This document shows, piece by piece, positions 2,427-18,167 of a stretch of DNA of 21,630 nt (position 1 is its first letter; each line of letters starts with the position of its first letter). The stretch comes from a virus, in the IMG/VR virus record IMGVR_UViG_3300017605_000677, positions 1 through 21,630 of that record; one strand, 5' to 3'. A program made the translations under genes and the position numbers. Under the pieces are notes generated by a model. The model made no database searches. It was not told the DNA's origin and worked only from the letters and a program-made list of their open reading frames with translations.

Positions 2427-2849
2427 ATGCTTGACCCGACCCAGAAGGCCGCCGCGGACCAGATGGTGGCCGTGCTCGGCGCGGTCCCGAAACACATCCG
2501 CGAAGCGATCATTGCGCAGAGCGGCAAGGAACAGTCGCTCGCCCGCATTGACCGGGAAATGGCGGACCTCTACGCCAGTGCCGAGGACTGCCGCCCGCAC
2601 GACGTGGCGGACCTGCGCGACCCGGTGAAGTACGCCTCGCTCGGCCTCCTGATGATGCGGCAGGCGAGGAGCCCGCGGTCGAAGGAGAAGATGTTCATGC
2701 ACTTGGGCAAGGTCTTCGGCCACGACAGCAAGAACATCAACATCGACGACAAGCGCTCCTTCAAGGACGTTCTGACCGCGCTCCAAAGCGAGTTCAAAAA
2801 GGCCGTCCCCGCGCAGGTCACGGTGAAGGATGTCACTAACAGCCACTGA
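2427..2849 (+). CDS. terS: probable terminase small subunit
   Basis: This encodes a 140-residue, mostly helical protein directly upstream of the terminase large subunit and overlapping it by 20 bases. In tailed phages the small subunit recognises the packaging site on viral DNA and hands it to the large-subunit motor. Sequence support is modest: the protein has a helical N-terminus (QKAAADQMVAVLGAVPKHI), then VKYASLGLLMMRQARSP and KEKMFMHLGKVFGHDSKNIN, a pattern I associate with TerS proteins that have a helical oligomerisation region. No clear helix-turn-helix can be drawn by eye. GGAG lies 7 bases before the ATG. It is the first gene of the rightward structural operon. Position is the main reason for the call. 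Confidence 0.62.
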   Translation: MLDPTQKAAADQMVAVLGAVPKHIREAIIAQSGKEQSLARIDREMADLYASAEDCRPHDVADLRDPVKYASLGLLMMRQARSPRSKEKMFMHLGKVFGHDSKNINIDDKRSFKDVLTALQSEFKKAVPAQVTVKDVTNSH

Positions 2850-3576
2850 ACGGCGCCCGCTGACCGAGATCCTGGCCGACGTGGCCTCGGCGCAGGAGCG
2901 CCTGCTCGAGTCCGACCCCGACGACAAGGTGGTGGGGCGGCTGCTCTCGTGGTACGCGGCGCTGTGCGAGGAGGCTTCCGAGCAAGACCGCTGGTCCTTC
3001 TGCCGCCTCCTGGTCAAGACGCAAGATGAACACAACAAGAAGGCACCGTTCCAGCGGGTGCCGGACATGCCCTACCTGCAACGGCTGGCTGAGGTGTGGG
3101 CCGAGGTCGATACGCGCGACGGGGATCGGGTGCTGTTCATCAAGAAGTCGCGCCAGATGATGGTGTCCTGGTTCGCGATCTCGATGGTGCTCTGGTCCTG
3201 TTTGTTCGAAGAGGGTCGCACCATCGGCTGGCAGAGCAAGAAGGCCGAGGACGCCAACTGGATGCTCGAGCGCATCTACGGCGTATGGGAGCGCCTGCCC
3301 GACGAGGTTCGCGCGCGCCACCCCTGCGAGCGCAAGGAAGGCCAACTCACCTTCCCCGACCGCAAGAACATCGTCATGGCGATCCCGGAAGGGCCGGAGA
3401 AGCCGCGCCAGTTCACGTGGTCGCTGTTCATTTCCGACGAGGCCGCGTTCCAGGCGATGTCGAAGGAAACCTACGTCGCGGTGCAGCCCGCGATTGCCGG
3501 TGGCGGGATGTACGTGATGATCTCGTCCGCGGCGCCGTCCTTCTTCATCACCATGTTCGACGACATCCCCGAATGA
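2830..3576 (+). CDS. terL: terminase large subunit, ATPase half (split gene)
   Basis: This encodes 248 residues carrying only the N-terminal ATPase (motor) domain of a TerL. This domain hydrolyses ATP to drive DNA into the prohead through the portal. Visible motifs are an adenine-binding-type N-terminal region, a deviant Walker A segment KKSRQMMVSW (about 105-114), a Walker B segment LFISDEAAF (D203, E204 as the metal/catalytic pair) and a motif-III-like VMISSAAPS (229-236). Complete TerL proteins are usually 450-600 residues and continue into a nuclease. Here a TGA stops the frame right after motif III and the nuclease continues in the -1 frame through an ATGA overlap. The start at 2830 has GAAGG directly before it, which is unusually close. 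Family assignment is secure; the split is discussed in the findings. Confidence 0.88.
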   Translation: MSLTATERRPLTEILADVASAQERLLESDPDDKVVGRLLSWYAALCEEASEQDRWSFCRLLVKTQDEHNKKAPFQRVPDMPYLQRLAEVWAEVDTRDGDRVLFIKKSRQMMVSWFAISMVLWSCLFEEGRTIGWQSKKAEDANWMLERIYGVWERLPDEVRARHPCERKEGQLTFPDRKNIVMAIPEGPEKPRQFTWSLFISDEAAFQAMSKETYVAVQPAIAGGGMYVMISSAAPSFFITMFDDIPE

Positions 3577-4514
3577 TCCAGGGCACGAAGAAGGTTTTGG
3601 TCGACTCGTGGTTCCGCGACCACGGCATGACGCGCCACGAGAACCGAAATGGCGCGACCTGCATCTGGATCCACCACTCCGCCGACCCCGCGAAGGACGA
3701 CGAGTGGGCGAAGAAGGACAGCCGCCGCTTCCCGGGTGGCCGCGAGGGCGGCCCGTGGCGCTGCGAAATGGACGGCGAGTCCGACGCCTACGGCGGCAAG
3801 CGCATCTTCCCCGACTTCTTCGAGCAGAGCCACGTGATTGCACCGCTCGAGGAGATCCCGCCGGAGTGGAAGAAGTACCGGGTGATTGACCCCGGCCTCG
3901 ACCACGCGCTCGCCTGCTGCTGGTACGTGCTCGACCCGTTCAACGAAATGCTGATTCAGTTCGACGAGCACATCCAGGAGGGTTGGCCGGAGGTTGCCCG
4001 CCACGCCTCGGTCATCAAAGGGAAGAGCCTCAAGTACGAGTTCGAGTACACGCTGCTCGACTCGTCGGCCTTCGCGAAGACGCTCGCGGGCGAGGGGCGC
4101 TCCGTCGCGACGCTCTTCCTCGACAACGGCATCACGGTCACGCCGGCCTCTCGGATCGACAAGATCGCGCAGATCGCGGCACTCGCCGACCTGATGATGA
4201 TTCGTGGCGCCGAGCCGCGCTTCAAGGTCACGAGCAACTGCACGGTCTCGATCGACCAGCTGAAGAAGTACAAGTGGATGCCGGCGCTGCACGACGACAA
4301 GGAGTCGCCGCAGAAGCCCATGAAAATCTACGACGACGCGGTCGACTGCTCGCTCTACATGGCGGTGTCGCTCGACGTGAAGCGCAAGTCCGCCGAGGTG
4401 CGCCGGTCCGACCCGTTGGCGCCGTGGTACAGTGGAAAGGACTACCGGCGCAGTCGCGCCGACGAAGCCCGCATTCGCGGGGTGCTTAGGGATTGGTCGG
4501 AGATGGAACCATGA
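3573..4514 (+). CDS. terL: terminase large subunit, nuclease half (split gene)
   Basis: This encodes 313 residues with the RNase H-like nuclease domain of TerL, which cuts concatemeric DNA at the start and end of packaging. It opens with the linker region that normally follows the ATPase (NGATCIWIHHSADPAKDDEW, about 26-45) and GGKRIFPDFF (74-83). The nuclease acidic residues appear as D106 in RVIDPG, D163 in LLDSSA and the D254/D255/D258 cluster in YDDAVDCS, the expected three-site metal-binding arrangement. Its ATG overlaps the stop of the ATPase frame as ATGA, so it is likely made by translational coupling, or fused by a -1 frameshift. Nothing in the domain appears to be missing. Its own stop overlaps the next ATG in the same ATGA way. 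Confidence 0.88.
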   Translation: MIQGTKKVLVDSWFRDHGMTRHENRNGATCIWIHHSADPAKDDEWAKKDSRRFPGGREGGPWRCEMDGESDAYGGKRIFPDFFEQSHVIAPLEEIPPEWKKYRVIDPGLDHALACCWYVLDPFNEMLIQFDEHIQEGWPEVARHASVIKGKSLKYEFEYTLLDSSAFAKTLAGEGRSVATLFLDNGITVTPASRIDKIAQIAALADLMMIRGAEPRFKVTSNCTVSIDQLKKYKWMPALHDDKESPQKPMKIYDDAVDCSLYMAVSLDVKRKSAEVRRSDPLAPWYSGKDYRRSRADEARIRGVLRDWSEMEP

Positions 4515-5568: not shown

Positions 5569-5605
5569 TGGAAATCACCTAGACAACTACTGTTGCTTCC
5601 CTATT

Positions 5606-5630
5606 GCGGGATGTGCCTGTACCATCCCGC
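5606..5630 (+). promoter_or_regulatory. 8-bp perfect hairpin before the portal gene
   Basis: GCGGGATG (5606-5613) is the exact reverse complement of CATCCCGC (5623-5630), with a 9-base loop. It sits in the 80-base gap between the Gly/Ala-rich gene and the portal start, one of the few gaps in this operon. There is no T-run after it, so a simple terminator is unlikely. It may control portal translation, stabilise the downstream mRNA or mark a processing site. Confidence 0.45.
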
Positions 5631-5648
5631 CCCGTGGCGATCAGTGAG

Positions 5649-7670
5649 ATGACGCTTCGGGAAGCCCGCCGGTCTCGCGCGGGCTCATATACGCCGAGCG
5701 AGGAAGAGAAAGAGGGCCTGCGCGCATTGGAGTCGCGCTGGCACCCCTTCGAGCCATTGCGTCTCTCCTACGAGCGGCAATGGTCCATTAACCTCGCATT
5801 CCTGATCGGAATGCAGTACGTCCGGTGGGACGCCGCCACCCGGCAGGTGCTCTACCAACAGACCCCGTCGCTGCGCTGGCGGGCGCGCGCGGTCCACAAC
5901 TTCTGCCGCCCCTACGTCGAGAACGAGGTCGCGAGTTCCGGGGCGTTTAACCCGACCTTCAAGGTCCGCCCGAAGAACTCCGACCCCGAGAACTTCAACA
6001 AGGCCGAGTCGAACCAGGACGTGCTGTTGCACTACTGGGACAAGCTCGGCATGCGCTCGAAGCGCTACGACCTGCTCTACCTCGTGAAGACGATGGGCAC
6101 CGGCTGGCTCTACGCCGGCTGGGACCGCGAGGGCGGGAACTCGATGACCTCGGAGCCCGAGATCATCAACGTCCGCGGCAAGCCGACGCAGGTGGCGCAC
6201 ACCGAGTACGAAGGCGACATCGACTCCTACGCGGTTTCCCCGTTCCACATCTACTACGACCTCGCCGCGTCCCGCCCCGAAGACCTGCGCTGGCTGATCC
6301 ACGCGCGCGCCGTCCCGATCGAATGGGTGGAGCAGCACTACCCCGAAATGGCCGACCACGTGCCGCTCGGGCTCGAGCGCGAGATCATCCAGCGCCAGCG
6401 CTGGGTCGTCGACCTTGCAGGGCCGACCGGCGCGCTCTCGATGCAGGCACCAGCGGAGACCCGCAAGGATTGGGTGCTGGTCCGCGAACTGTACGAAATG
6501 CCGTCGCTCGACTTCCCCAACGGTCGCTACTTGGTCGACGGCAACGGCGTGCTCCTCGAGCAGCCGAAGGACAACCCGACCCCGAAGGGCCGCCTGCCCT
6601 TCATCCTCTTCCGCGACATGCTCGTCCCAGGACGCATCGCCGGGCAGTGCAACCTCGACAACCTGATCGAGATGCAGCGGTCCTACAACCGCAAGGCGAG
6701 CAAGAAGGAAGAGCACATCGTCCTGACGGCCAACGCCAAGATCCTCCTGCACGGGCAGTCCGACATTCCGCAGTCGGCCTTCTCGACCGAGGTGGGAGAG
6801 ATCGTGCCGTGGCACGGGACGGCGCCGCCGGCCTACCTCCAGCCGCCGTCGATGCCGCCCGAGACCGACACCGAACTCAACCGCGACCGCTCGGACATGG
6901 ACTTCATCACCCGCGCCTTCGGGCCGGGTCGCGGGCAGTACCCGGGCAAGGTCTCCGGGAAGATGGTGTCCCACCTGATCGAGCAGGAGGACCGGAACAA
7001 GGCCCCGATGGTGGACCGGCTGTCCGAGGGGCTTTGCTCCTGGGGCTCGCTGATCCTCCAGCTGGCGCAGAAGTACGTGATCGAACCGCGCCTGATCCAC
7101 GTGATCGGACGCAACAAGCAGTTCTCCGCGAAGGAGTTCATCGGCCAGGACGTGGACGGGAACTACGAGTGCTCGATCGAAGTCGAGTCGATGTTCCCGA
7201 AGTCCCGCACCATGGCGATGGAGTTGATCGTCCCGCTGACCCAGCTGGGTTGGCTCTCGCCGCAGAACAAGCAGGACCGGGCGCGGGTCTTCAAGTCGCT
7301 CTCAATGGAGGACGACGCGCCGCTGGTCGAGGACGCGATGCTCGACATGCGCTGCGCGCGCAACGAGAACCGCCTCCTGATGATGGGCCAGATGGTCCCC
7401 AAGGCCGAGTACTGGGAGGACCAGGACATCCACATGCTCATTCACGCGGAGTGCGCGAAGAGCGACGAGTTCAAGAAGGCGCACCCGATCATCCAGGACT
7501 TCCTGCGCGCCCACATGCAGACCCACATCGACTTGGCGATGCCGCGGGCGGGCGTCACGGTCCCGACCGAAGAGTCCTCCGCCGAGCCGGCTCCGCAGAT
7601 CGACGCTGGCTCTCCGCCGCCCGCGCCGATGGCGCAGGGTCCGCAGCTGTCCATGAACGCCTACACGTAG
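5649..7670 (+). CDS. portal protein
   Basis: This encodes 673 residues from the ATG at 5649. The portal forms the dodecameric ring at one capsid vertex, through which DNA enters and leaves and on which terminase and tail proteins dock. The length is close to P22-type portals (about 725). Characteristic core sequence is visible: YERQWSINLAFLIGMQYVRW near the start, then RARAVHNFCRPYVENEVASS, a region with MGTGWLYAGWD, and a helical stem region with LIEMQRSYNRKASKKEEHI. The C-terminus is Pro/Ala-rich. The start is uncertain: a GTG at 5634 and a TTG at 5604 are in frame upstream, and neither has a good ribosome binding site. Position between terminase and scaffold agrees with the call. Confidence 0.88.
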   Translation: MTLREARRSRAGSYTPSEEEKEGLRALESRWHPFEPLRLSYERQWSINLAFLIGMQYVRWDAATRQVLYQQTPSLRWRARAVHNFCRPYVENEVASSGAFNPTFKVRPKNSDPENFNKAESNQDVLLHYWDKLGMRSKRYDLLYLVKTMGTGWLYAGWDREGGNSMTSEPEIINVRGKPTQVAHTEYEGDIDSYAVSPFHIYYDLAASRPEDLRWLIHARAVPIEWVEQHYPEMADHVPLGLEREIIQRQRWVVDLAGPTGALSMQAPAETRKDWVLVRELYEMPSLDFPNGRYLVDGNGVLLEQPKDNPTPKGRLPFILFRDMLVPGRIAGQCNLDNLIEMQRSYNRKASKKEEHIVLTANAKILLHGQSDIPQSAFSTEVGEIVPWHGTAPPAYLQPPSMPPETDTELNRDRSDMDFITRAFGPGRGQYPGKVSGKMVSHLIEQEDRNKAPMVDRLSEGLCSWGSLILQLAQKYVIEPRLIHVIGRNKQFSAKEFIGQDVDGNYECSIEVESMFPKSRTMAMELIVPLTQLGWLSPQNKQDRARVFKSLSMEDDAPLVEDAMLDMRCARNENRLLMMGQMVPKAEYWEDQDIHMLIHAECAKSDEFKKAHPIIQDFLRAHMQTHIDLAMPRAGVTVPTEESSAEPAPQIDAGSPPPAPMAQGPQLSMNAYT

Positions 7671-7679
7671 GAACCGAAC

Positions 7680-8096
7680 ATGGCCGTCGTCAACATCACT
7701 GTCACGCCGATCAGCACCTCGGAGAACTTCTCGCTCGTCGTCACCTCCGACGACGGCGACCTGATGGCTCCGGTGAAGCTCTCGATCGCGACGGGGCAGA
7801 CCTACTCGACGACCGACCGCTGCGCGCTGGTGCATACCGCAGGGTCCGACTTCTACGAGCACTTCGGTCGGCGGATCATCCGCAACGTCGTGGCCGAGCC
7901 CATGGCGTGCAACAACGTGAGCTACGGCGTGCTGAAGCTCACCTGGGACTTCGCCTCCCAGAAGATGAAGCTGTTTGTCCAGGGAGACGGCGGGACGACC
8001 GCCCCCGCTGGCCCGCGTGACGAGGCGGAGGTCGCCAACGCGACCGCGCTCGGCACCGGGACGATGTCCTGCAAGGCGTGGATCTTTTTCCAGTAG
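7680..8096 (+). CDS. small beta-rich virion protein candidate
   Basis: This encodes a 138-residue protein with AGGA, built on the portal stop codon, before its ATG. The sequence alternates short beta-type stretches and Gly/Asp/Ser turns (VVNITVTPISTSENFSLVVT, SYGVLKLTWDF), with a few Cys (CALVH, ACNNV, CKAW). No signal peptide or membrane helix is present. Its place between portal and scaffold suggests a minor capsid, decoration or assembly protein. It is the first of three consecutive small proteins of similar size and composition. I recognise no specific family. Confidence 0.72.
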   Translation: MAVVNITVTPISTSENFSLVVTSDDGDLMAPVKLSIATGQTYSTTDRCALVHTAGSDFYEHFGRRIIRNVVAEPMACNNVSYGVLKLTWDFASQKMKLFVQGDGGTTAPAGPRDEAEVANATALGTGTMSCKAWIFFQ

Positions 8097-8107
8097 GAAC
8101 CCAACCC

Positions 8108-8563
8108 ATGATGAATTGGGCTGCCGCAGATTCCCCGGTCCACGTCACCAAGATGGGCGAGTATTTCGCCGCCCACCTGATCCTGACGTTCGACAACACC
8201 GCCGCAGGTCCGGCGGGGTCGACCGTGCTGGGCCAGACGTACGACCCGACGAACCACTACACGACCAACCCCGCGTTCTCGGACGTGGCTGGCAAGAACC
8301 TGCTCGATGTCTGCGGCTTCCGCTACATCGTCCAGGTGATGGACCCGGACGGCTCGTCCAGTTCCACGGCCAAGGGCACGGCGCAGTCGGCGTCGGGTTC
8401 GATCAAGGCGATCTGGTCCTCGGCCATCAACGCCTTCATCCTCGCGCAAGAGGGCAACGGCGGCGCCGCGGATGCGCTGACGAAGCAGAACGAACTCGAA
8501 CTCGACACGACCGCCGGAGCGCTCTCGCCCCTGTCGTTCAGTGTTGTGGTCATCGGGAGGTAA
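8108..8563 (+). CDS. small beta-rich virion protein candidate (possible decoration protein)
   Basis: This encodes a 151-residue protein. It starts at the first of two adjacent ATGs (8108, 8111), preceded by TAGGAA built on the upstream stop. The middle reads AAHLILTFDNT, then DPTNHYTTNPAFSDVAGKN, then LLDVCGFRYIVQVMDPDGSS. This is a strand-turn pattern like the short beta-sandwich proteins that decorate or cement many phage capsids (general knowledge; no specific match can be made by eye). It continues with an Ala/Ser-rich helix and a final strand (SPLSFSVVVIGR). With its neighbours on both sides it forms a run of three small proteins just before the scaffold and capsid genes. Confidence 0.7.
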   Translation: MMNWAAADSPVHVTKMGEYFAAHLILTFDNTAAGPAGSTVLGQTYDPTNHYTTNPAFSDVAGKNLLDVCGFRYIVQVMDPDGSSSSTAKGTAQSASGSIKAIWSSAINAFILAQEGNGGAADALTKQNELELDTTAGALSPLSFSVVVIGR

Positions 8564-8565
8564 TC

Positions 8566-9030
8566 GTGGCGCTCACCCCACTCGTCACCGTCCTGAACGC
8601 CGTCAACAAGATCCCGATGGGCGGGTTCAAGCTCTGCTTCTTCACGATGAGCTTCACGGCGAGCGACGTGTACACCGCCGGAGGCTTCGACATTCGCGCG
8701 AACCTCCGCAAGCTCTTCGGCACGCGCGACGTGCTCGACATCCTCTTCCTCGGGAGTTCGAGCAACGCGATCGGCACCACGACCTACGGCACCTCGCGCG
8801 CGGCGGCCCGCTACATCTTCACGCCCGGCAAGTTCGGGGCATCCGAAGCCGGAGTCGTGAAGCTCTTCGCGATGGGGCGCACCGCGGCAGCGACCGTGGT
8901 GGCCTCCGAAGTTGAACTCGCAACCAACGACAACGTGCGCGGAGCCACTGGCACCGGACTCACCTTCCAGGGCGTTGCGCTCTGCCGAGGCGAGGGTTCG
9001 ACCATCGACTCCGTCATGTCCAACAGCTGA
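8566..9030 (+). CDS. small virion protein candidate (possible decoration protein)
   Basis: This encodes a 154-residue protein that starts with GTG at 8566. GGGAGG lies 5 bases upstream, the clearest ribosome binding site in this region, and decides the start. The sequence has strand-turn character: GGFKLCFFTMSFTASDVYTA and then GGFDIRANLRKLFG, followed by DVLDILFLGSSS, a Gly/Thr-rich middle and a final GTGLTFQGVALCRGE. The arrangement 'F...Y..GGF.I...' resembles capsid cement-type proteins coded near the major capsid gene in other phages; this is inference. It is separated from the scaffold gene by a 56-base gap that holds a hairpin and a palindrome. Confidence 0.72.
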   Translation: MALTPLVTVLNAVNKIPMGGFKLCFFTMSFTASDVYTAGGFDIRANLRKLFGTRDVLDILFLGSSSNAIGTTTYGTSRAAARYIFTPGKFGASEAGVVKLFAMGRTAAATVVASEVELATNDNVRGATGTGLTFQGVALCRGEGSTIDSVMSNS

Positions 9031-9044
9031 ACCACCGGCCAACC

Positions 9045-9078
9045 GGGCCTCGCCATTCGGCGGGCCTAGGCGCCTAGG
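9045..9078 (+). promoter_or_regulatory. bulged hairpin and 14-bp palindrome before the scaffold gene
   Basis: GGCC-T-CGCC (9046-9054) can pair with GGCGGGCC (9059-9066) across a 4-base loop, giving 8 bp with one bulged T. Directly next to it, CCTAGGCGCCTAGG (9065-9078) is a perfect 14-bp palindrome. Its right end overlaps the AGGAG ribosome binding site of the scaffold gene. The two structures share bases and cannot both form in one RNA, so this may be a site of translational or transcriptional control. Confidence 0.45.
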
Positions 9079-9086
9079 AGTACGCC

Positions 9087-10130
9087 ATGAGTGTCAATGT
9101 GAAGCAAGAGGTCACGCAGGACCGCATCGACGCGATGATCGCCGCTGGCCGCGGAGACGGAGCAACGCCCGAGGCGCCTCCAGTCAACGCGCCGCAGCCC
9201 GATCCCGCCCTCGTCGCTCCTGCGGAGACCGTCGCTGACGACTTCGAGCAGGGGCAACAGCCGCAGGCTGACCCGATTGCCGAGGCCAAGGCGAAGTACG
9301 AAGCCGAACTCGAGGAGCTTCGGGAGGAACTGAAGAACACCAAGGCCCAGGTGTCGCAGTCGCATCGGCGCAACCAGGAATCTGCTCGTGATCGGCAGGC
9401 GGCTGAACAGGCCGCGCTCGCCGCGCAGGAGCGGGACCAGCGTGTCGAGGCGGCGCTGCGGCGCATGGATGGCATGGCGGCCGGGCTTGCGCAGCTTGCG
9501 AAGCTCGATCCGAGCGTGGCCGGGCAGGTGCTTCAGACCTGGGGCGCCGACGCGGCGAATGGCGGTGGGGGTCGGGACCAGTTCTCGATCCACGGCGCCG
9601 AACGCCGCGAGGATCCGCGCGTCGCCCAGCTGCAAAGCGAACTGGCGACGATGAAGCGGGACGTGAGCGGCTTCGCGTTCAACGTGAACTCCGGCGCGGT
9701 GCAGGCCACCATCGACCGAATGATGGCGGGCAACACGGCGTTCAAGGCCGCGGAGGAACTCGGCGAACTCGACGAGATCCGCGAGAAGGTGTTCACGAAG
9801 TTCCTTGAGCTTGACAAGGAAAACCCGGGTTCCATCAACCCGCACTCCCCCCGGCAGATCAACGAGGCCGTGAAGCGGCTCGTGGACGACGCCGCGAAGC
9901 GCGAACAGAAGCGCTCGAAGTGGGAGATCAAGTCCTACCGCGAGCAGCGCAAGGCGCTGAACTCGCAAGCCGGCGCCCCCACTCGAGGCCCCAACGCGCC
10001 CGTGCGCGCGGCCCCGACTCCTACCGGGCCGGCTCAAGGTGAATCCAAGAAGGCGCAGCAGGCGCGGTGGGAGAACGCTTTCACCAATGCCACGAAGGCG
10101 ACACCGAAGGGTCCGTCTTCGGAGGTTTGA
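9087..10130 (+). CDS. capsid scaffolding protein
   Basis: This encodes a 347-residue, highly charged and helical protein placed directly before the major capsid gene, as expected for a scaffold. Scaffolds template prohead assembly and leave before or during packaging. The N-terminal 60 residues are Pro/Ala/acid-rich and probably disordered. About 62-130 is a long coiled-coil-like helix (EAKAKYEAELEELREELKNT). The middle (190-260) is helical, and the C-terminal 80 residues are basic (KREQKRSKWEIKSYREQRKA), matching the basic helical ends with which scaffold proteins bind coat protein. AGGAG lies 7 bases before the ATG, within a palindrome. Confidence is high for role by position and composition, less so for family. 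Confidence 0.82.
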   Translation: MSVNVKQEVTQDRIDAMIAAGRGDGATPEAPPVNAPQPDPALVAPAETVADDFEQGQQPQADPIAEAKAKYEAELEELREELKNTKAQVSQSHRRNQESARDRQAAEQAALAAQERDQRVEAALRRMDGMAAGLAQLAKLDPSVAGQVLQTWGADAANGGGGRDQFSIHGAERREDPRVAQLQSELATMKRDVSGFAFNVNSGAVQATIDRMMAGNTAFKAAEELGELDEIREKVFTKFLELDKENPGSINPHSPRQINEAVKRLVDDAAKREQKRSKWEIKSYREQRKALNSQAGAPTRGPNAPVRAAPTPTGPAQGESKKAQQARWENAFTNATKATPKGPSSEV

Positions 10131-10144
10131 AATAGGAGCCGGGC

Positions 10145-11641
10145 ATGGCCGGCGACACCCTTACTACCTTCAGTCCCTCCCAAAAGGAGGTGTACTGCGG
10201 GATCATCAACGAAGTCCTCAACTCCAAGCAGCAGATCAACGGTTTCATCGACACCATCGACGCCCAGGGCGGCGGTGTCATCAACACGGCGCCGGGTACG
10301 ACTGCGACGCGCGGCCTGCACTTCGACGTGCATGTGACGCGCAACTCGACCGGCACCTACCAGAACCCGGAGATTGGTTTCCCGAGCGCGGGGAACCAGG
10401 GCTACCGGCAGGGCTACTTCCAGGGCCGCACGATCTACTGGCCGATGTCCGTCTCCCGCGCTGCGGTCGTCCGCACGAAGGGGAACGAGGCGGCCTACGC
10501 GCAGGTCATGGTCGAGGCCGCGGCGCGCACTGCGAAGGATCTCCAGAACGAGGAGGAGCGCGCGCTCCTCGGTGACGGTTCCGGCACGCTCGGGACCATC
10601 AACGGCGCGGTCGCCATGAGCGGTGGCAACACCATCATGACGATCACGCTGGACAACTACCAAGACCTCATCAAGTTCTACGAGGGGATGCTGATTGGCT
10701 TCTGGTCGGCCCGCACGACCGGCGCCACGCAGCACAAGTTCGCGCTGACCGGCACCGCCACGAACATCTGGCTCGCGGTCGTGTCGAGCATTGTGGCGTC
10801 GACCTCGACGCCGCAGATCGTGGTGGTGGCGTCCGACGGCGGCACGGCGGCGACCACGGAGGTTGCGTCGGGAGACGTAATCACCAAGGCGTCCGACGGT
10901 GTCAGCGGCGCCGTGGCGATCTCGCAGAGCCAGGGTCCGCGTACTTCGACGGTGCGGTTCGAGCCGAACGGGCTCGACAACATCATCAGCGACTGCGACT
11001 CCCCGATGGAGTCGGGTGCGAGCGCGGGCGGGTTCTGCGGAATCCTCGCGCCGGCCGCGTACGGCACCGCCAACCTCTCGGGTGGTGGCGGGTCGGCCAA
11101 CACGGGAGGTCTGCGCGCGTGGGCGAGCTACGTCGACCGCGCGTCGTCCGGCCGTGCGTTCTCTGACACGATCATGCAGAACATGCTCGACGCCTGCATG
11201 ATCAAGTACGGGGAGCGGCCGGACATCATCACCTGCTCCTACGGCGCTCGAACGGAGTTTGCCAACAGCAAGCTCGCGATCCGCCGCGTGGTCAACACGA
11301 CCGCGATCTCCGGCAGCACGGGTGGCGGCTTCAACGAGAACGAGGGCTCGGGTGACTTCGTCCAGTACGACGGCATCCGCATCGTTCCGAGCCGCTTCGC
11401 ACCGACCTCGGTGATCTCTTCGGCTCCGACGGCGACCTACCTCGCCTGGAACCAGGATCTCATCAAGCGCTACCAGTGGCACGGCGTCAAGTTCATTGAC
11501 GACGACGGCCTCACGTGGCGCATGTCGGGGCGGACCCCGGTGTTCGAGGCGTACCTCGAGCACACCTACGAGTTGGTGACGTTCAAGCGGAATGCACACG
11601 CGAAGGCGATTGCCGTCCTCGCGCAGTCCCCGCTGGCCTGA
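10145..11641 (+). CDS. major capsid protein
   Basis: This encodes 498 residues with GGAG before the ATG. The protein begins with a helical N-arm region (FSPSQKEVYCGIINEVLNSK), continues with a Gly/Thr-rich loop region and a helix (AYAQVMVEAAARTAKDLQNE, about 118-137), and has an inserted beta-rich, Val/Thr/Ala-rich segment near 205-275. The C-terminal third contains helix and strand patterns typical of the HK97-fold coat proteins, with RTPVFEAYLEHTYELVTFKR near the end. Length, position directly after the scaffold, and the strong terminator-like hairpin right behind it support the call. The beta-rich middle could be an insertion domain on the capsid surface. Fold assignment is inference, but the identity is well supported by context. 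Confidence 0.87.
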   Translation: MAGDTLTTFSPSQKEVYCGIINEVLNSKQQINGFIDTIDAQGGGVINTAPGTTATRGLHFDVHVTRNSTGTYQNPEIGFPSAGNQGYRQGYFQGRTIYWPMSVSRAAVVRTKGNEAAYAQVMVEAAARTAKDLQNEEERALLGDGSGTLGTINGAVAMSGGNTIMTITLDNYQDLIKFYEGMLIGFWSARTTGATQHKFALTGTATNIWLAVVSSIVASTSTPQIVVVASDGGTAATTEVASGDVITKASDGVSGAVAISQSQGPRTSTVRFEPNGLDNIISDCDSPMESGASAGGFCGILAPAAYGTANLSGGGGSANTGGLRAWASYVDRASSGRAFSDTIMQNMLDACMIKYGERPDIITCSYGARTEFANSKLAIRRVVNTTAISGSTGGGFNENEGSGDFVQYDGIRIVPSRFAPTSVISSAPTATYLAWNQDLIKRYQWHGVKFIDDDGLTWRMSGRTPVFEAYLEHTYELVTFKRNAHAKAIAVLAQSPLA

Positions 11642-11648
11642 CCTTTTT

Positions 11649-11708
11649 CTGATCCTGGGGGCCGTGGCGCACTTTGCCCCAACCGGACGCCACGGCCCCT
11701 GGGGTCAG
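11649..11708 (+). terminator. strong terminator-like hairpin after the capsid gene
   Basis: The arms are 11649-11669 and 11688-11708, with an 18-base loop. Twelve loop-proximal pairs are perfect (GGGGCCGTGGCG with its complement), and three mismatched or wobble positions follow nearer the base. A short T-run (TTTC) follows the stem on the plus strand. It directly follows the capsid stop codon, where many phages place a partial terminator to set high capsid expression against lower downstream expression. Confidence 0.7.
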
Positions 11709-11721
11709 TTTCGAGACCCCA
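11700..11721 (+). promoter_or_regulatory. alternative hairpin competing with the terminator
   Basis: TGGGGTC (11700-11706) can pair with GACCCCA (11715-11721), a 7-bp stem with an 8-base loop. Its left arm is the end of the terminator's right arm, so the two stems are mutually exclusive at their base. Its right arm reaches the A of the next gene's ATG and would block initiation there. It may act as an attenuator or simply damp translation. Confidence 0.4.
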
Positions 11722-12335
11722 TGAAGCCACCGCTCTGCTCCTACGAAATGCACTACACCTCCTACCGGAGCGCGTGGGGTGTGCTGCACGAAGAGGCGGT
11801 GGCGACGATCAAGCCGTGCCGGTGCGCCGGGCACAGCTACGTCGACTTCAACGAGCAGCTGGGGCGCCTTCACCCGGGGTTGCAGCTGGGCTTCGACCTG
11901 CGCAAGCACCGCTGGGTGATCTACAAGTTCGTGAACGAACTCGCGCGCACGGACATCGGCGGCGGGGACCACATCGTCTCCGTCTGCAAGATCATGGACA
12001 TCGTGTTCACGTGCGAGGTCGCCATCGAGTACCGCGGCAAGGACGGTGGCTGGCGCACGCGGACCGTCCCGCTGCCGTACGGCGACTGGGTGCTCCTGCG
12101 GATCGCCGCGAGCGCCACGGACCGCTTCACGCGCGGGAGCGGGTGGATCGAGCGCACCATGCTCGATCTCGAGAAGAAGAAGGAGGAGGCGCAGGCGAAG
12201 CGTGTCAAGGCGAACGCGGACGCCTGGGTGAATGACTGCATGTCCTCGGCAGATCGGGGCAACCCGTTCTTCCGCCGCCGGCAATTCCGGCAGCGCAAGG
12301 TGCGGCCCAACCACCCGGTCAAGGCGACTGCATGA
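11721..12335 (+). CDS. hypothetical protein after the capsid gene
   Basis: This encodes a 204-residue protein of unknown function that starts at the ATG at 11721, which abuts the post-capsid hairpins and has no clear ribosome binding site. The N-terminal part contains CRCAGHSYVDF, with two Cys near a His (a possible metal site, but without the rest of a zinc-finger pattern). A mixed alpha/beta middle has FVNELARTDIG, and the C-terminal part is a charged helix (LEKKKEEAQAKRVKANADAW) ending in a very basic tail with FFRRRQFRQRK. Its ATGA overlap with the next gene links it to the connector. Genes at this place in podovirus-like genomes are often unassigned. Nucleic-acid binding through the basic tail is only a guess. 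Confidence 0.75.
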   Translation: MKPPLCSYEMHYTSYRSAWGVLHEEAVATIKPCRCAGHSYVDFNEQLGRLHPGLQLGFDLRKHRWVIYKFVNELARTDIGGGDHIVSVCKIMDIVFTCEVAIEYRGKDGGWRTRTVPLPYGDWVLLRIAASATDRFTRGSGWIERTMLDLEKKKEEAQAKRVKANADAWVNDCMSSADRGNPFFRRRQFRQRKVRPNHPVKATA

Positions 12336-13069
12336 CCCAGCAAGACATCGAGAACTGGGTGCTGCGGTTCCTCCAGACCGACTACGCCAACGGCAACTGG
12401 ACGCAGGACGAGATCCGGCAGTACATCCGGGACGAGGAGCTTCGCCTCTTCGTCCACATCGTCGGGAAGGACGAGGACTTCTTCCAGGCGCCGCCGGCCT
12501 ACGTGTCGGAGGTTGCGAACCAGCAGCGCTACTCGCTGCCGCAGAATCTCTACAAGGTGCTGCGCGTCGAGCGCGTGGTCGGTGCCCTCGCCTCCGCGAC
12601 CTCACCGATCGTGATGAACCCGGTCGACCGGAACGCGGATTCGATCACCCTCGCGCGCGGCACCTATTGGCCGTTCATCGGCGGCGGGACGATGCCGTTC
12701 CCGATGAACTACCAGATCATCGGGCAGAGTCAGATGGACCTCTACCCGATCCCGAACAACACGCTCACCAACTCCATCAAGATCAACTACGCCGCGAAGC
12801 CGGCGGGGATGGTGAACCCGACCGACGTTCCGTTCCAGATCGCGAACGGTCCGGGCGGTCCGGGCCTCGACGACCTCTCGGAGTGGCATGACATCATCGC
12901 GATGGGTGCCACGCAGCGCGCGCTCGAGCACGAGGAGGCGTACCCGCAAGCGGATCGCATGGGGGCGCGCTACGCGCAGCGCCTCGCGGAACTGGTGGCC
13001 TACCTGCAACAGATCAACGTCCAGGCGCCTCGGTACGTCCGCGTCACCGAAGACACCTGGTACTCGTGA
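12332..13069 (+). CDS. probable head-tail connector (adaptor) protein
   Basis: This encodes a 245-residue protein whose ATG overlaps the previous stop as ATGA. It begins with a helical, acidic region (QQDIENWVLRFLQTDYANGN, then DEIRQYIRDEELRLF), has a central beta-rich region (YSLPQNLYKVLRVERVVGAL; DLYPIPNNTLTNSIKINY), and ends with a helical segment (ATQRALEHEEAYPQADRMGA; LAELVAYLQQINVQAPRY). The helix-beta-helix order, size and position after the capsid gene match adaptor proteins that form a ring under the portal and join it to the tail. I cannot place it in a named family by eye. Its TGA is followed 7 bases later by the next ATG. Confidence 0.6.
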   Translation: MTQQDIENWVLRFLQTDYANGNWTQDEIRQYIRDEELRLFVHIVGKDEDFFQAPPAYVSEVANQQRYSLPQNLYKVLRVERVVGALASATSPIVMNPVDRNADSITLARGTYWPFIGGGTMPFPMNYQIIGQSQMDLYPIPNNTLTNSIKINYAAKPAGMVNPTDVPFQIANGPGGPGLDDLSEWHDIIAMGATQRALEHEEAYPQADRMGARYAQRLAELVAYLQQINVQAPRYVRVTEDTWYS

Positions 13070-13076
13070 GGACGCG

Positions 13077-13658
13077 ATGCTCTACGTTCCCAAGATTCCC
13101 GAGACCCTGCTCCGCGTCACCGGCATCGTCGCCACCAATGGCGGGCTGGTCGCCACCAACGGAACGAACTCTTCGGGTTCGCAGGCGGGCACCAACCTCG
13201 TCACCGGCCAGAACTTCTCGAAGTGGTTCGAGGTGAAGGGGCGTGAACTCACGCTGCTCGTTGCCTACACGAAGGGGGGCGAGACCAGCTGCCAGTTCGC
13301 GTTCACCATCTTCGGGTCGGCCGGCGTCCCTTCGCGTGACATGGACGTGACGTTCGGTCCGGCAGGGACCGGCGTGACGGCAGTGAACACGGACCAGGTA
13401 ATCGGCGGGGTGTCCTACCCGCTCTGGGAATCGAGCATGGGCAACGTGCAGTGGGTGACCAACGCCTTCACTGCCACGGCCACCATGGCGATTCCAGTTC
13501 ACCTCGGCGTCAGCAACCGCACGACGCCGGCCACGATCCCGGTGGCGCTCACGCCGTCGGCGTTCCCTGGCCGCTACGCGCGCCTGGGCGTCGTGATCGC
13601 CGGCAACCCGAACTCTTCCACCGTCATCAACGTGGACCTCGCGTGGTCGGGGCACTGA
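13077..13658 (+). CDS. small beta-rich structural protein candidate
   Basis: This encodes a 193-residue protein with GAGG 5 bases before the ATG. It consists mainly of beta-strands and Gly/Thr/Ser/Asn turns (GIVATNGGLVATNGTNSSGS, VKGRELTLLVAYTKGGETSC, FTATATMAIPVHLG), with a final strand region ending in NSSTVINVDLAWSGH. No signal or membrane segment is visible. The composition suggests a tail or surface decoration protein. It ends at TGA, directly abutting the GTG start of the 1502-residue protein (TGAGTG), so the two are co-translated and probably assembled together. Family not recognised. Confidence 0.72.
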   Translation: MLYVPKIPETLLRVTGIVATNGGLVATNGTNSSGSQAGTNLVTGQNFSKWFEVKGRELTLLVAYTKGGETSCQFAFTIFGSAGVPSRDMDVTFGPAGTGVTAVNTDQVIGGVSYPLWESSMGNVQWVTNAFTATATMAIPVHLGVSNRTTPATIPVALTPSAFPGRYARLGVVIAGNPNSSTVINVDLAWSGH

Positions 13659-16600
13659 GTGGCGCAGTACGCGAAGCTGACCCTTCCGGCCCCCAAGGGA
13701 CTGAACCTCGCCCGGAAGGAAGACTCCCTCGACCCGGGTGAAACCTCGGTCGAGAACAACATCGACCACCACGAGAACGCGGTGGCGCGCAAGCGCAACG
13801 GCTACCGCAACGTGCTGCTCGGGAACTTCGACCGGGCACTGAAGGGCGGCCTTCCGTCGCAGTCGATCGGCGTCGTCGGCGAGGAGTGGTGGCTCGACGC
13901 GCAAACGCAGATGCAGGCCGCGGACTTCACCGAGGCCACGCCAGTTGTCTCCAACGGGCGGCGCGACTTCTTCAACCAGCGCCCGTCCATCATCGTCATC
14001 CCCGAAGGGAACATGGGGCCGGCGACGCGGCTCGACGTGAAGAACACGACAGCCCCCAGCTGGGCCTTCGAGTTGTGCCTGAGCGCGGACGAGATCCCGC
14101 TGTTCAACGGCAATACGATCGCCAACTCGCCGATCATGGTTCCGATCGTCGCGCAGAAGGGGCTTCAGGCCAACGGCCAGTGGGCCGTGCGACTCATCCA
14201 GGACGGCGCGTCCGACCGCTTCTACGCCGTGCTCACGCTCTACGAAGGCGCGGTGCTCGGCCAGGGCGCTGGCTTGGTCGGCAATCCGACGACACCCACG
14301 ACCAACGCAACCGACTTCTTCTACAACTCCGGCGCGAACCGGGCCTGGGTGGAGCCGGGCAAGCGTGTCTGGCTCGCCTGGAAGTACATCGCCGGCAACC
14401 CGGGCACGGTCACCTCCTACTACTGGCAGGAGGGGGACTCGTCGGTCGTCAACTCGGCGCAGCTGTCAACCTACGTGAACGCCTCGCTCGGAACGAACGG
14501 AGTCGGCACGACCCCATACCCCATCACGATTGGCCGGCGGCCGTGGCAGGCGGCCGGGCGCTCGGTCGGCGGCGGAATCCCTGCCGGCGTCAACAATGCC
14601 ATCGACGAGATCGGCTTCCTCGGCTCGGTCTCGGAGATGAGGTTCTGGCTGGACTCGGCGCAGGGAGTTGCCGGCACGCTCGAACTCCCGGCGAATTGGG
14701 GGATCATCAACCCATCCCCTCCTGGGGAAGACTGGTACGTCGACCGCGAGATCCCGGAGGAGCAGCTGACCACGGACTCCTCGATCGAGTCCGGCAACCT
14801 CGTTCAAACGAGCGACCTCGAGCTTTACTTCCAGTTCAAGCCGGAGCTTGTCGGCTACGCGCCCAACGGGGCCGCGATTGCTGGCGAGAACCACCGGATG
14901 ATCCGGCCGCGCTTCACGCGCGGGACAGCCAGCGACAACCGCGCCTGGATCACCGGGGCCGACGTGACGTGGCTACCTGGGACGGGTGCCCTTGGTTCGT
15001 CCTGCCTCGGCTTCGTCCCGATCGCTCCGGTGGCCGGGCAGCTGTACGTGTTCGCCGACACGATGCGCTCCGGGCTCACGAACTCGTACTTCGGCAAGCG
15101 CCTCTTCTGCGGCGGGATCCGCATTCCGAATGCGGCGTCCTACCTGCGCCGCGCCAGCACCGGAACGGTCACTGGTTGGGAATGGCCGGACGAGTTCTCG
15201 ATCCGCATGCCGCTGCGCTGCGACGCCTTGCCGTCCTCAACCGCGGCGACGTACTGGGAAACGCTCTCCGAGATCAACGTCGCCCGCCAGGGCACCGGCC
15301 CGAACTTCGACCGCTACGGCATCTCCACGATCTGGCGGACCTACATCATCTTCGACGGCGCGGGTGCCGCCGGGGCTGGCTGGTACTTCCGCTTCACCAT
15401 GGTCGACGCTGCGGGCGCCGCCACGTCGGTGCAATCGACGACCAAGGTGGTCGAAGGGACCGTTTACACGCTGCAATGCTCGGCGCGGTTCATCGGCGCG
15501 AACCGCGTCATGTCGCTCTACCTGAACGGGTTCCGCGAGGGCACGAGCAACATCGCGGCATCCAAGCCGATCATGTCCCAGGTGTCCGGCACGGATACGA
15601 CGGACCCGAACAAGGACGACGACGACGGGCGCGACACGTCCTTCCCGTTCTACCTGGGCGTGTCGGTTGCCACGCCCGTCAACATCGACAGCCACCCGGA
15701 TCCATTCGCCTTCCGCTATGGGGCATACAGCGGTGGCGGTGGAGGGATTGGCAACCTCGGATCGAACCGTACCTATTGGGGCTGGTCGACGAACGACACG
15801 CCGAAGACCGTCAACGACGGCATCGGCTATCGCGGCCACAACCCGCTCGTCGGCGTGATCGGGGAATGCCAGGTCTGGCAGGCATACCCGAGCGAGGCCG
15901 AAGTCCAGTCGATGCGCGACCACGGGCCGACCGGCGATCAGATCCAGGCGGCCGGCGCGCGCATGCTGTCGAACTGGCGCTTCGACGAGGGCTCTGGCGT
16001 CACCTGCTTCGACGTGGGCTACCTGAAGAACCACCTACGCATCAACCCATTCCCGACGGCACACATCCGACCCGCCGTTCTGGATCGCGTGGAGAAGCCG
16101 GCGCTGCTCGGCATCTGGCAGAAGCGCCAGCTGTCAATCTCCGGCCCGAGCGAGCAGGAGGTGTACGCGCTGGGTCCGGGCGCGATCTTCCAGGTGCTGA
16201 AGGACGGCAACGGCGCTGGCTACCTGAAGAACATCGGCTCTTGCGCGACGCCGGAAATGTGGAACGCGCGGACGGACTCCTACTCGCTGCCGACCGCCTT
16301 CCAGTTCTCCGGCGCGCTCTACGTCTGCACCGGACTTGGTCCCGTGAAGCGGATCTTCAAGGGCAAGGTCTCCGACGCCGGCCTAACCCCAGTGTTCGGC
16401 AGCATCGGCGACGACCAGACCAACCTCGGGTGGCGCGAGTTCGACCGGGACGGGACGTTCCGCGCCTACGCGGCTGCGCTGGCCGCCAGTCCGGCCGAGA
16501 CCATCTTCGTCAAGGGACGCCGATACGGATGGGCGCTCACCCACTACAACCCCGATGACGGGACGGAGTCGGTGCCGTCGCGCCTCATGTTCATCAACAC

Positions 16601-18167
16601 GGATGGCGTGACCGGCATCGGCGCCAACGGCGTCAAGTCGTTCTTTCTCACGTCGTTCCCGCACACGACGCAGCGGCAGAACGCGAAGATCCGGCTCTAC
16701 CGCACCACGTCGGACGGAGCGCTCTTCCTGCTCCTGGCGGAGTTGTCCTCGGACACCCGCTCCTTCATCGACGGCATTCCCGACCGCAAGCTCGAGAACG
16801 TGCTGGACTCCTGGCTCAACTTCCCGCCGCCGCAGAACGCGCGGATCGGGTTGGCCTTCGGCGCTCGAGCGCTTTACTTCGGCGTCTCCGACCGGCCGGA
16901 CACGCTCTTCTATTCACTGCTCGGGCAGCCCGGCGCCTGCCCTCCGCAATACCAGCTGTCGATCAGTTCCGGGCAATCCACCGAACTGACCGCTGGCGTG
17001 GTCATCAACGACCGCGCCTTCGTGTTCACGCGCACGAGCACCTTCGGCGTGTACGACCAGGGCGGCGACATCTCTGTCGACGCGCAGGACAACCCGCCGG
17101 TCAAGATGTACCAGCTGCGAGACGACCTGGGCTGCATCAGCCACCACGGCATCATCGTGATCGAGGGCTTCGGAGCGATCATCCCGACCGAGCGCGGCCT
17201 CTACCTCTTCGACGGCAGCCAGTTCGTGAACCTGGGCGGCTACGCCGAGGACCGCATCCAGCCGTTCTGGGACTCGCTCAATCTCACCAACTCGCGCAAC
17301 TTCGTGGCGGCGGCGCACCGCCGGAAGAAGCAGTACATTCTCTACTGCTCCACCGACTGCTCTCCGGGCAACTACAACGACCGCGCGCTCGTCTACGACT
17401 GGGGCCGCAAGACCTTCTCCATCCAGACGCAGAAGGATGTGCTCTGCGCGGCGACCATCGCCGACGAGGTGACGAGCCAGGAGCGCGTCTGGTGTGGGAC
17501 GCTGAACGGCAACATCTTCGAGTTCGACCCGCCCGAGGTTGAGCTTCACTCCGACGGCCCGGTCGCCGCGCCGTTCACCGGCTCGATCGTTTCCGCGAAG
17601 CTCGATCCGCTGGGGTCGGGGCGCTACTCGAGGATCCAGCTGGTCTCCGACAACTCGCTGCCGACGGCCGGGGACGGCCTGCGCGGCGTCAACCTCTACA
17701 CCACCAACAACGGCGTTCAGTGGCACACCGAGCCACTGAAGATCCTCTGGAACGACGCGAACTGGGTGCTCGTGCGCTGGAACGAGACCGGCACCGTGAC
17801 CCCCACCGACTTCGAGTGGCGCCTCGGTCCGATCGGCGCGGCGTGGCGCTACGGCAAGCAGAACTTCAGTTCGGACGTGCCGAACAAGCGAGTGCTGCGC
17901 GTGCAGTACAACCTGAACCCGCAGGCCGTCACCGGCAGCCAGTTCGTCACGCAGTGCGGCTACGACGAGCAGGTGCCGCAAGGCAAGTTCGCCAGTGCCA
18001 CCGGGCAGTTCGCCATCCACGCCGGCATCCTCGGACGCGGCAAGCGTGTCGTGCTCCAGGCCCACGACATCACGCTCTTCGGGGGGCAGCCCAACAACCC
18101 CTGGAGCATTTCCAAGGTGGAACTCGACTGGCAGGGACGTGGCCGGTCGACCTACGTGCCGTCGTGA
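13659..18167 (+). CDS. very large tail protein, nozzle-like with laminin-G domains
   Basis: This encodes a 1502-residue protein that starts with GTG immediately after the preceding stop. The first 60 residues (LNLARKEDSLDPGETSVENN... and KRNGY near 46-50) resemble the opening of large podovirus tail-tube or nozzle proteins, where a short N-terminal region precedes a beta-propeller. Two laminin-G/concanavalin-like lectin domains are apparent: about 135-345 (strand-rich, ending AIDEIGFLGSVSEMRFW) and about 510-780 (GECQVWQAYPSEAEVQS then LSNWRFDEGSG...FDVG). From about 805 to 1300 the sequence is propeller-like, with repeats of hydrophobic strands (RAFVFTRTSTFGVYDQGG; TERGLYLFDGSQFVNLGG). No proteolytic or hydrolase motif is visible. 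Host-cell or glycan binding by the lectin domains is inference. Confidence 0.72.
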   Translation: MAQYAKLTLPAPKGLNLARKEDSLDPGETSVENNIDHHENAVARKRNGYRNVLLGNFDRALKGGLPSQSIGVVGEEWWLDAQTQMQAADFTEATPVVSNGRRDFFNQRPSIIVIPEGNMGPATRLDVKNTTAPSWAFELCLSADEIPLFNGNTIANSPIMVPIVAQKGLQANGQWAVRLIQDGASDRFYAVLTLYEGAVLGQGAGLVGNPTTPTTNATDFFYNSGANRAWVEPGKRVWLAWKYIAGNPGTVTSYYWQEGDSSVVNSAQLSTYVNASLGTNGVGTTPYPITIGRRPWQAAGRSVGGGIPAGVNNAIDEIGFLGSVSEMRFWLDSAQGVAGTLELPANWGIINPSPPGEDWYVDREIPEEQLTTDSSIESGNLVQTSDLELYFQFKPELVGYAPNGAAIAGENHRMIRPRFTRGTASDNRAWITGADVTWLPGTGALGSSCLGFVPIAPVAGQLYVFADTMRSGLTNSYFGKRLFCGGIRIPNAASYLRRASTGTVTGWEWPDEFSIRMPLRCDALPSSTAATYWETLSEINVARQGTGPNFDRYGISTIWRTYIIFDGAGAAGAGWYFRFTMVDAAGAATSVQSTTKVVEGTVYTLQCSARFIGANRVMSLYLNGFREGTSNIAASKPIMSQVSGTDTTDPNKDDDDGRDTSFPFYLGVSVATPVNIDSHPDPFAFRYGAYSGGGGGIGNLGSNRTYWGWSTNDTPKTVNDGIGYRGHNPLVGVIGECQVWQAYPSEAEVQSMRDHGPTGDQIQAAGARMLSNWRFDEGSGVTCFDVGYLKNHLRINPFPTAHIRPAVLDRVEKPALLGIWQKRQLSISGPSEQEVYALGPGAIFQVLKDGNGAGYLKNIGSCATPEMWNARTDSYSLPTAFQFSGALYVCTGLGPVKRIFKGKVSDAGLTPVFGSIGDDQTNLGWREFDRDGTFRAYAAALAASPAETIFVKGRRYGWALTHYNPDDGTESVPSRLMFINTDGVTGIGANGVKSFFLTSFPHTTQRQNAKIRLYRTTSDGALFLLLAELSSDTRSFIDGIPDRKLENVLDSWLNFPPPQNARIGLAFGARALYFGVSDRPDTLFYSLLGQPGACPPQYQLSISSGQSTELTAGVVINDRAFVFTRTSTFGVYDQGGDISVDAQDNPPVKMYQLRDDLGCISHHGIIVIEGFGAIIPTERGLYLFDGSQFVNLGGYAEDRIQPFWDSLNLTNSRNFVAAAHRRKKQYILYCSTDCSPGNYNDRALVYDWGRKTFSIQTQKDVLCAATIADEVTSQERVWCGTLNGNIFEFDPPEVELHSDGPVAAPFTGSIVSAKLDPLGSGRYSRIQLVSDNSLPTAGDGLRGVNLYTTNNGVQWHTEPLKILWNDANWVLVRWNETGTVTPTDFEWRLGPIGAAWRYGKQNFSSDVPNKRVLRVQYNLNPQAVTGSQFVTQCGYDEQVPQGKFASATGQFAIHAGILGRGKRVVLQAHDITLFGGQPNNPWSISKVELDWQGRGRSTYVPS

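Follow-up and report, generated by a model that had tools for sequence, protein, structure and literature searches.

The large terminase subunit, TerL, is the DNA-packaging pump of tailed phages and is normally one chain. The window analyzed here, a stretch of 21,630 bases that makes up the whole of IMG/VR record IMGVR_UViG_3300017605_000677 (classed as linear), encodes a predicted TerL in two-gene form. The first open reading frame (ORF1, 2830..3576, + strand; ATG at 2830, TGA at 3574-3576) specifies a TerL ATPase-core polypeptide of 248 aa that runs from the N-terminus through motif III. The second (ORF2, 3573..4514, + strand; ATG at 3573-3575) specifies 313 aa that are predicted to cover the final portion of the ATPase domain, the hinge, and an RNase H-like nuclease. 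The ORF2 start and the ORF1 stop share an ATGA overlap (3573..3576, + strand), with ORF2 in the -1 frame. We consider it very likely that this arrangement is an inherited fission of the TerL gene, and that the two chains form one heteromeric packaging motor. The two genes are intact, under selection, inherited together, and cut at one conserved place; from their sequences we infer that ORF2 is expressed by reinitiation and that the two products assemble into a single motor able to package DNA.

In the TerL profile phrog_2 (807 positions; PHROGs), ORF1 matches positions 272-414 and ORF2 matches positions 446-625 (E 1.6e-9). These consecutive parts, together with the coordinates, confirm the original prediction, made from the letters of the window, that TerL is divided between these two ORFs at an ATGA overlap. 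ORF1 also matches phrog_5989, and a Pfam search with ORF1 and ORF2 returned nothing meaningful. Both ORFs have a third-position GC of about 0.9, and the signal moves from the ORF1 frame to the ORF2 frame at the junction, as would be expected of two real genes.

The break in uncultured relatives

Relatives were collected in family scans for which the ATPase and nuclease halves were aligned separately and the seed profiles came from split members. The ATPase scan used the best 80 of 304 confirmed matches, and the census is thus a sample. It comprised 103 distinct ATPase sequences, three of which belong to known phages with fused TerLs that were added as references (RM378, immuto, and MW202803); one sequence (L024) is cut by a contig end and was left out of the count of 99 members. 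Of the 99 distinct members, which are from environmental contigs, 92 have an ATPase ORF that stops shortly past motif III, usually no more than 10 residues from the end of the profile; the other seven are fused. A separate nuclease ORF was present on the contig in 88 of the 92, i.e., the two domains that would be expected on one polypeptide lie in separate ORFs in these members. The recurrence of the same cut supports the natural two-polypeptide motor that the original prediction had offered as one of its options.

The break recurs in relatives from other samples at 79-84%, 55-57%, and about 30-37% identity. The identical break with ATGA was found in two contigs from other metagenomes, L002 (79% and 84% protein identity for ORF1 and ORF2, respectively) and L004 (55% and 57%), and in L030, a contig of a Candidatus Omnitrophota metagenome-assembled genome with about 30% identity. 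Eleven further loci have the ATGA overlap. Within the window, ATGA overlaps are used again at 4511-4514 and 12888-12891, as had been claimed. There was one ATPase-half match per contig in 15 contigs, the window included. Apart from the split locus, a phrog_2 search of these 15 contigs turned up no other terminase; this search missed three of them altogether and is therefore not exhaustive.

The spacing and order of the two genes vary between loci. Among the 78 loci with the nuclease gene downstream, the genes overlap in 27, are separated by 0-30 nt in 14 and by 31-1000 nt in 31, and are more than 1 kb apart in six; the largest gap between the halves is 3,956 nt. Start codons for these counts were picked by a script, and L030 and L037 are really short overlaps. 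In ten loci (L054 and L133-L141) the order is reversed, and the nuclease gene precedes the ATPase gene by 1.3-2.1 kb; in the ATPase tree, the ten make up one side of a branch that has a support of 92. The range of spacing, from overlap to 3,956 nt, and the ten nuclease-first loci indicate that the halves work as separate genes. In L039 (7920-9955), genes for an FkbM-type methyltransferase and a family 2 glycosyltransferase lie between the TerL halves.

A comparison of the window with L002 shows purifying selection on both halves. For ORF1 the synonymous divergence (dS) is 0.64 and the nonsynonymous divergence (dN) 0.158, which gives a dN/dS of about 0.25; for ORF2 the values are 0.56, 0.108, and about 0.19, respectively. 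The pairwise divergences of the two halves are correlated, with a Mantel r of 0.833 for 85 loci, some fused members among them. For the 40 split loci with separated halves the r is 0.905, and the maximum of 999 shuffles was 0.15. Part of this correlation comes from shared phage ancestry, but it does show that the two halves are passed on together.

Position of the cut and a proposed motor

The motif sets predicted for the two halves were all recovered, ORF1 containing an N-terminal ATPase with a Walker A-like motif, Walker B, and motif III, and ORF2 a C-terminal RNase H-like nuclease with three catalytic acids. The deviant Walker A motif, KSRQMMVSW, occupies ORF1 residues 106-114 (K106 to W114; 3145..3171, + strand). 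K106 and R108 are kept in 92 of 93 non-fused alignment rows, the usual glycine position is mostly Met in the family, and the canonical Gly-Lys is absent. Across the family the motif is mostly KSRQ[MIL][MLR]x[ST]W, fused members included; since the fused members carry the same motif, it marks the family and not the split. The Walker B acidic pair D203-E204 (3436..3441, + strand) is invariant in 93 of 93 rows. Motif III, or coupling motif, reads S232-S-A-A (3523..3534, + strand) and aligns with TTTPNG of T4 gp17; ORF1 ends 13 residues further on. The ATPase ORF of L127 (5875-7392), at 505 aa, contains a long insertion, and its C-terminal end is as in the other split members.

In ORF2, the catalytic aspartates of the nuclease are D106 (3888..3890, + strand; kept in 85 of 85 loci), D163 (4059..4061, + strand; 83 of 85), and D258 (4344..4346, + strand; 81 of 85), with D254 close to the last of these. 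The nuclease profile had no match in the PDB. The nuclease matches L006-L020 were rejected as members of the split family; they are fused TerLs of another family. Intein-like domains (Pfam Intein_splicing) are contained in the nuclease halves of L067 (1588-3612), L091 (6822-8336), L104 (2955-4937), L110 (2930-4894), and L129 (3274-5205). Three of these five also match HNH_3, and L129 is below the Pfam cut-off. In four of the five, the intein-like domain is located where the nuclease profile stops, near the third catalytic Asp.

The original prediction had placed the junction in the natural linker between the domains, and this part of it did not hold. The ATPase-half profile aligns to T4 gp17 residues 106-295 with a probability of 97.2%, and the hmmsearch alignment stops at gp17 residue 297. 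The T4 ATPase-domain chain 2o0h has 385 residues and an offset of 25 relative to 3ezk, which by arithmetic puts its end at about residue 360. The natural cut is thus located inside the ATPase domain and outside the inter-domain linker, just after motif III at gp17 ~295-297 and about 65 residues short of the ATPase-domain end. In the fused family members, motif III is followed by a connector of 11-29 residues (78 in the outlier L163) and then by ORF2-type sequence. The distance from gp17 residue 295 to the catalytic D401 is 106 residues, and the matching aspartate of ORF2 is D106. In this register, ORF2 would correspond to the C-terminal part of the T4-type "transmission" subdomain, the hinge, and the RNase H-like nuclease/translocation domain. 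In T4, the coupling motif is found where the ATPase subdomains meet, subdomain II is described as the transmission, and the translocation groove is in the C-domain (PMC3012670, PMC9958956).

Translation of ORF2 in the window probably depends on termination-reinitiation at the ATGA overlap. Most likely, the two products associate to reconstitute a single TerL unit, and these units would form the usual motor ring on the portal. The ATPase chain would be coupled to the transmission-hinge-nuclease chain by protein-protein contact. The natural cut precedes the hinge, which keeps transmission, hinge, and nuclease on the same chain. This model predicts that a TerL divided directly behind the coupling motif can still function in trans, and it bears on a central question about packaging motors, namely how hydrolysis of ATP in the ATPase is transmitted to the domain that grips the DNA. 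It would also make the ATPase and nuclease parts available as separately expressible proteins for structural and single-molecule work. A more speculative extension, to which we assign a low probability, is that in the heteromeric motor of this large uncultured phage lineage the ATPase and transmission-hinge-nuclease subunits could differ in number or exchange during packaging. If so, pumping versus cutting could be regulated by subunit binding.

Several observations weigh against a motor of two chains. When T4 gp17 was cut at the hinge, ATPase and nuclease activities were kept and translocation was abolished (PMC3012670, PMC9958956). That artificial cut is downstream of the natural cut in the window's family (PMC3012670); we suggest that the natural cut is tolerated because, unlike the T4 hinge cut, it leaves transmission, hinge, and nuclease together. 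A direct profile comparison of ORF2 with T4 gp17 gave no significant alignment, and the ORF2 register is therefore taken from the fused family members and the spacing. ORF2 has no clear Shine-Dalgarno sequence in the window, so its reinitiation is something we infer. AlphaFold2 models of the single halves, computed with four-sequence alignments, had mean pLDDT values of 30.5 and 51.4, too low for use. When halves from several branches were compared with 50,697 phage records, only distant matches, below about 34% identity, and no close cultured relative were found; the distant matches that were inspected are fused TerLs.

Alternatives to the proposed pair of cooperating chains

Both proteins might be made and yet act apart, with ORF1 as the motor and ORF2 as a separate cutting enzyme that is needed in another amount or at another stage. 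The genes are physically separable, and where translation is coupled, the downstream gene often yields less product (PMC2988022). We regard this as improbable: the halves co-diverge tightly, and the part of the T4 protein equivalent to ORF2 holds both the translocation groove and the transmission segment (PMC3012670), so ORF1 alone would have neither.

A programmed -1 frameshift late in ORF1 could give a fused TerL besides, or instead of, two proteins. This option of the original prediction is in keeping with the -1 frame of ORF2 in the window and with frame 3 being open upstream of the ORF2 start. The ORF2-type frame is likewise -1 relative to the ATPase frame in 27 of the 41 adjacent or overlapping loci; however, it is +1 in 11 and the same in three. 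No slippery heptamer of the form X XXY YYZ was found in the last 30 codons of ORF1 in the window, L002, or L004, and the window and L002 show no unusual conservation of synonymous sites past the junction. The halves are more than 30 nt apart in 37 loci, and ten others have the reversed order. Frameshifting is therefore rejected as an improbable explanation.

The halves might instead be rejoined after transcription or translation, through a spliced intron or through trans-splicing by a split intein. Introns in terL and inteins in TerL are known in phages (PMC12363816, PMC7156551), and, as described above, some nuclease halves of the family contain inteins. Rejoining is nevertheless very improbable: the halves in the window overlap by four bases, leaving no intervening DNA at the junction, there is no intein sequence at either end, and no Rfam intron was detected in 11 sources, namely the window and ten loci whose halves are separated by a gap.

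A sequencing or assembly indel that breaks an ordinary TerL gene, the third option of the original prediction, is conceivable for a single contig such as the window, but the comparison with relatives refutes it: contigs from independent metagenomes share the break at identities between 84% and about 30%, the ATGA is identical in L002, L004, and L030, and other relatives have separated or reversed genes.

Origin of the split, neighboring genes, and known systems

In the ATPase tree, a quick tree with long branches and no bootstrap, the family is on one well-supported branch relative to the three fused T4-like references. At least five changes between split and fused are needed on this tree. One old split followed by some re-fusions is possible, as are several splits at one place.

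In one relative (L036), an HNH endonuclease gene (1555-2157; Pfam HNH, 3.3e-9) occupies exactly the space between the two halves and is bordered by ATGA on each side. The final codons of the HNH gene are similar to the 3' end that the ATPase gene has in uninterrupted relatives, and the L036 ATPase gene has a replaced 3' end. Judged from these sequences, the HNH gene looks like a homing-type insertion at the junction, and in our best reading the junction is a repeated insertion site. An insertion of this kind may, as a possibility only, have caused the original split.

The TerL genes of the window are near portal and head genes. Upstream, a gene at 2427..2849 (+ strand; 140 aa) shares 20 bases with ORF1 and has a homologous ORF in L002 (1029-1451). 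By position only, its product is a candidate for the small terminase; no PHROG match was found for this gene. The portal gene is at 5604-7670 (phrog_156, 1.1e-32) and the major head protein gene at 10145-11641 (phrog_14242). Together with a weak phrog_4080 scaffold match and a phrog_511 internal virion protein, they belong to a podophage-like structural module at 5604-18167.

TerL commonly serves as a phage marker gene; split copies might be thrown out as frameshifted, or full-length profiles might miss them. In annotation guidelines for actinophages, the two TerL domains have names of their own for cases in which they are encoded apart.

The T4-like TerLs of T4 (gp17), the Rhodothermus phage RM378, and the Flavobacterium phage immuto resemble the two-gene form in the order of Walker B, motif III, and RNase H-like nuclease, and the gp17 core aligns. 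They differ in being one chain, and RM378 and immuto have a Walker A motif with the usual glycine (KxRQxG). The Parabacteroides phage PDS1 (MN929097) has its TerL as two coding sequences (CDS), for which its authors suspect a codon table or assembly problem (PMC10773633). The two CDS encode 338 and 148 aa; neither product matches the profiles of the window's family, and PDS1 was therefore rejected as a member of it.

Other phage enzymes, namely Aeh1 NrdA, T4 gene 60/39, and phage 25 gene 43, are split by the insertion of homing endonucleases, and the split products of Aeh1 NrdA and of the phage 25 polymerase are reported to be functional (PMC2988022). As in the family described here, one enzyme is made from two genes, and L036 has an HNH gene at the junction. 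In contrast, the enzyme here is TerL, the split is old and lineage-wide, and the junction in the window is without an endonuclease gene. The terL of the Jug phages is also in pieces on the DNA, interrupted by group I introns whose flanking exons are rejoined through RNA splicing (PMC12363816), whereas no intron was found here; the TerL of Mic1 contains inteins (PMC7156551). The precedents found in the literature are thus the two-CDS TerL of PDS1, the introns of the Jug phages, and the inteins of Mic1.
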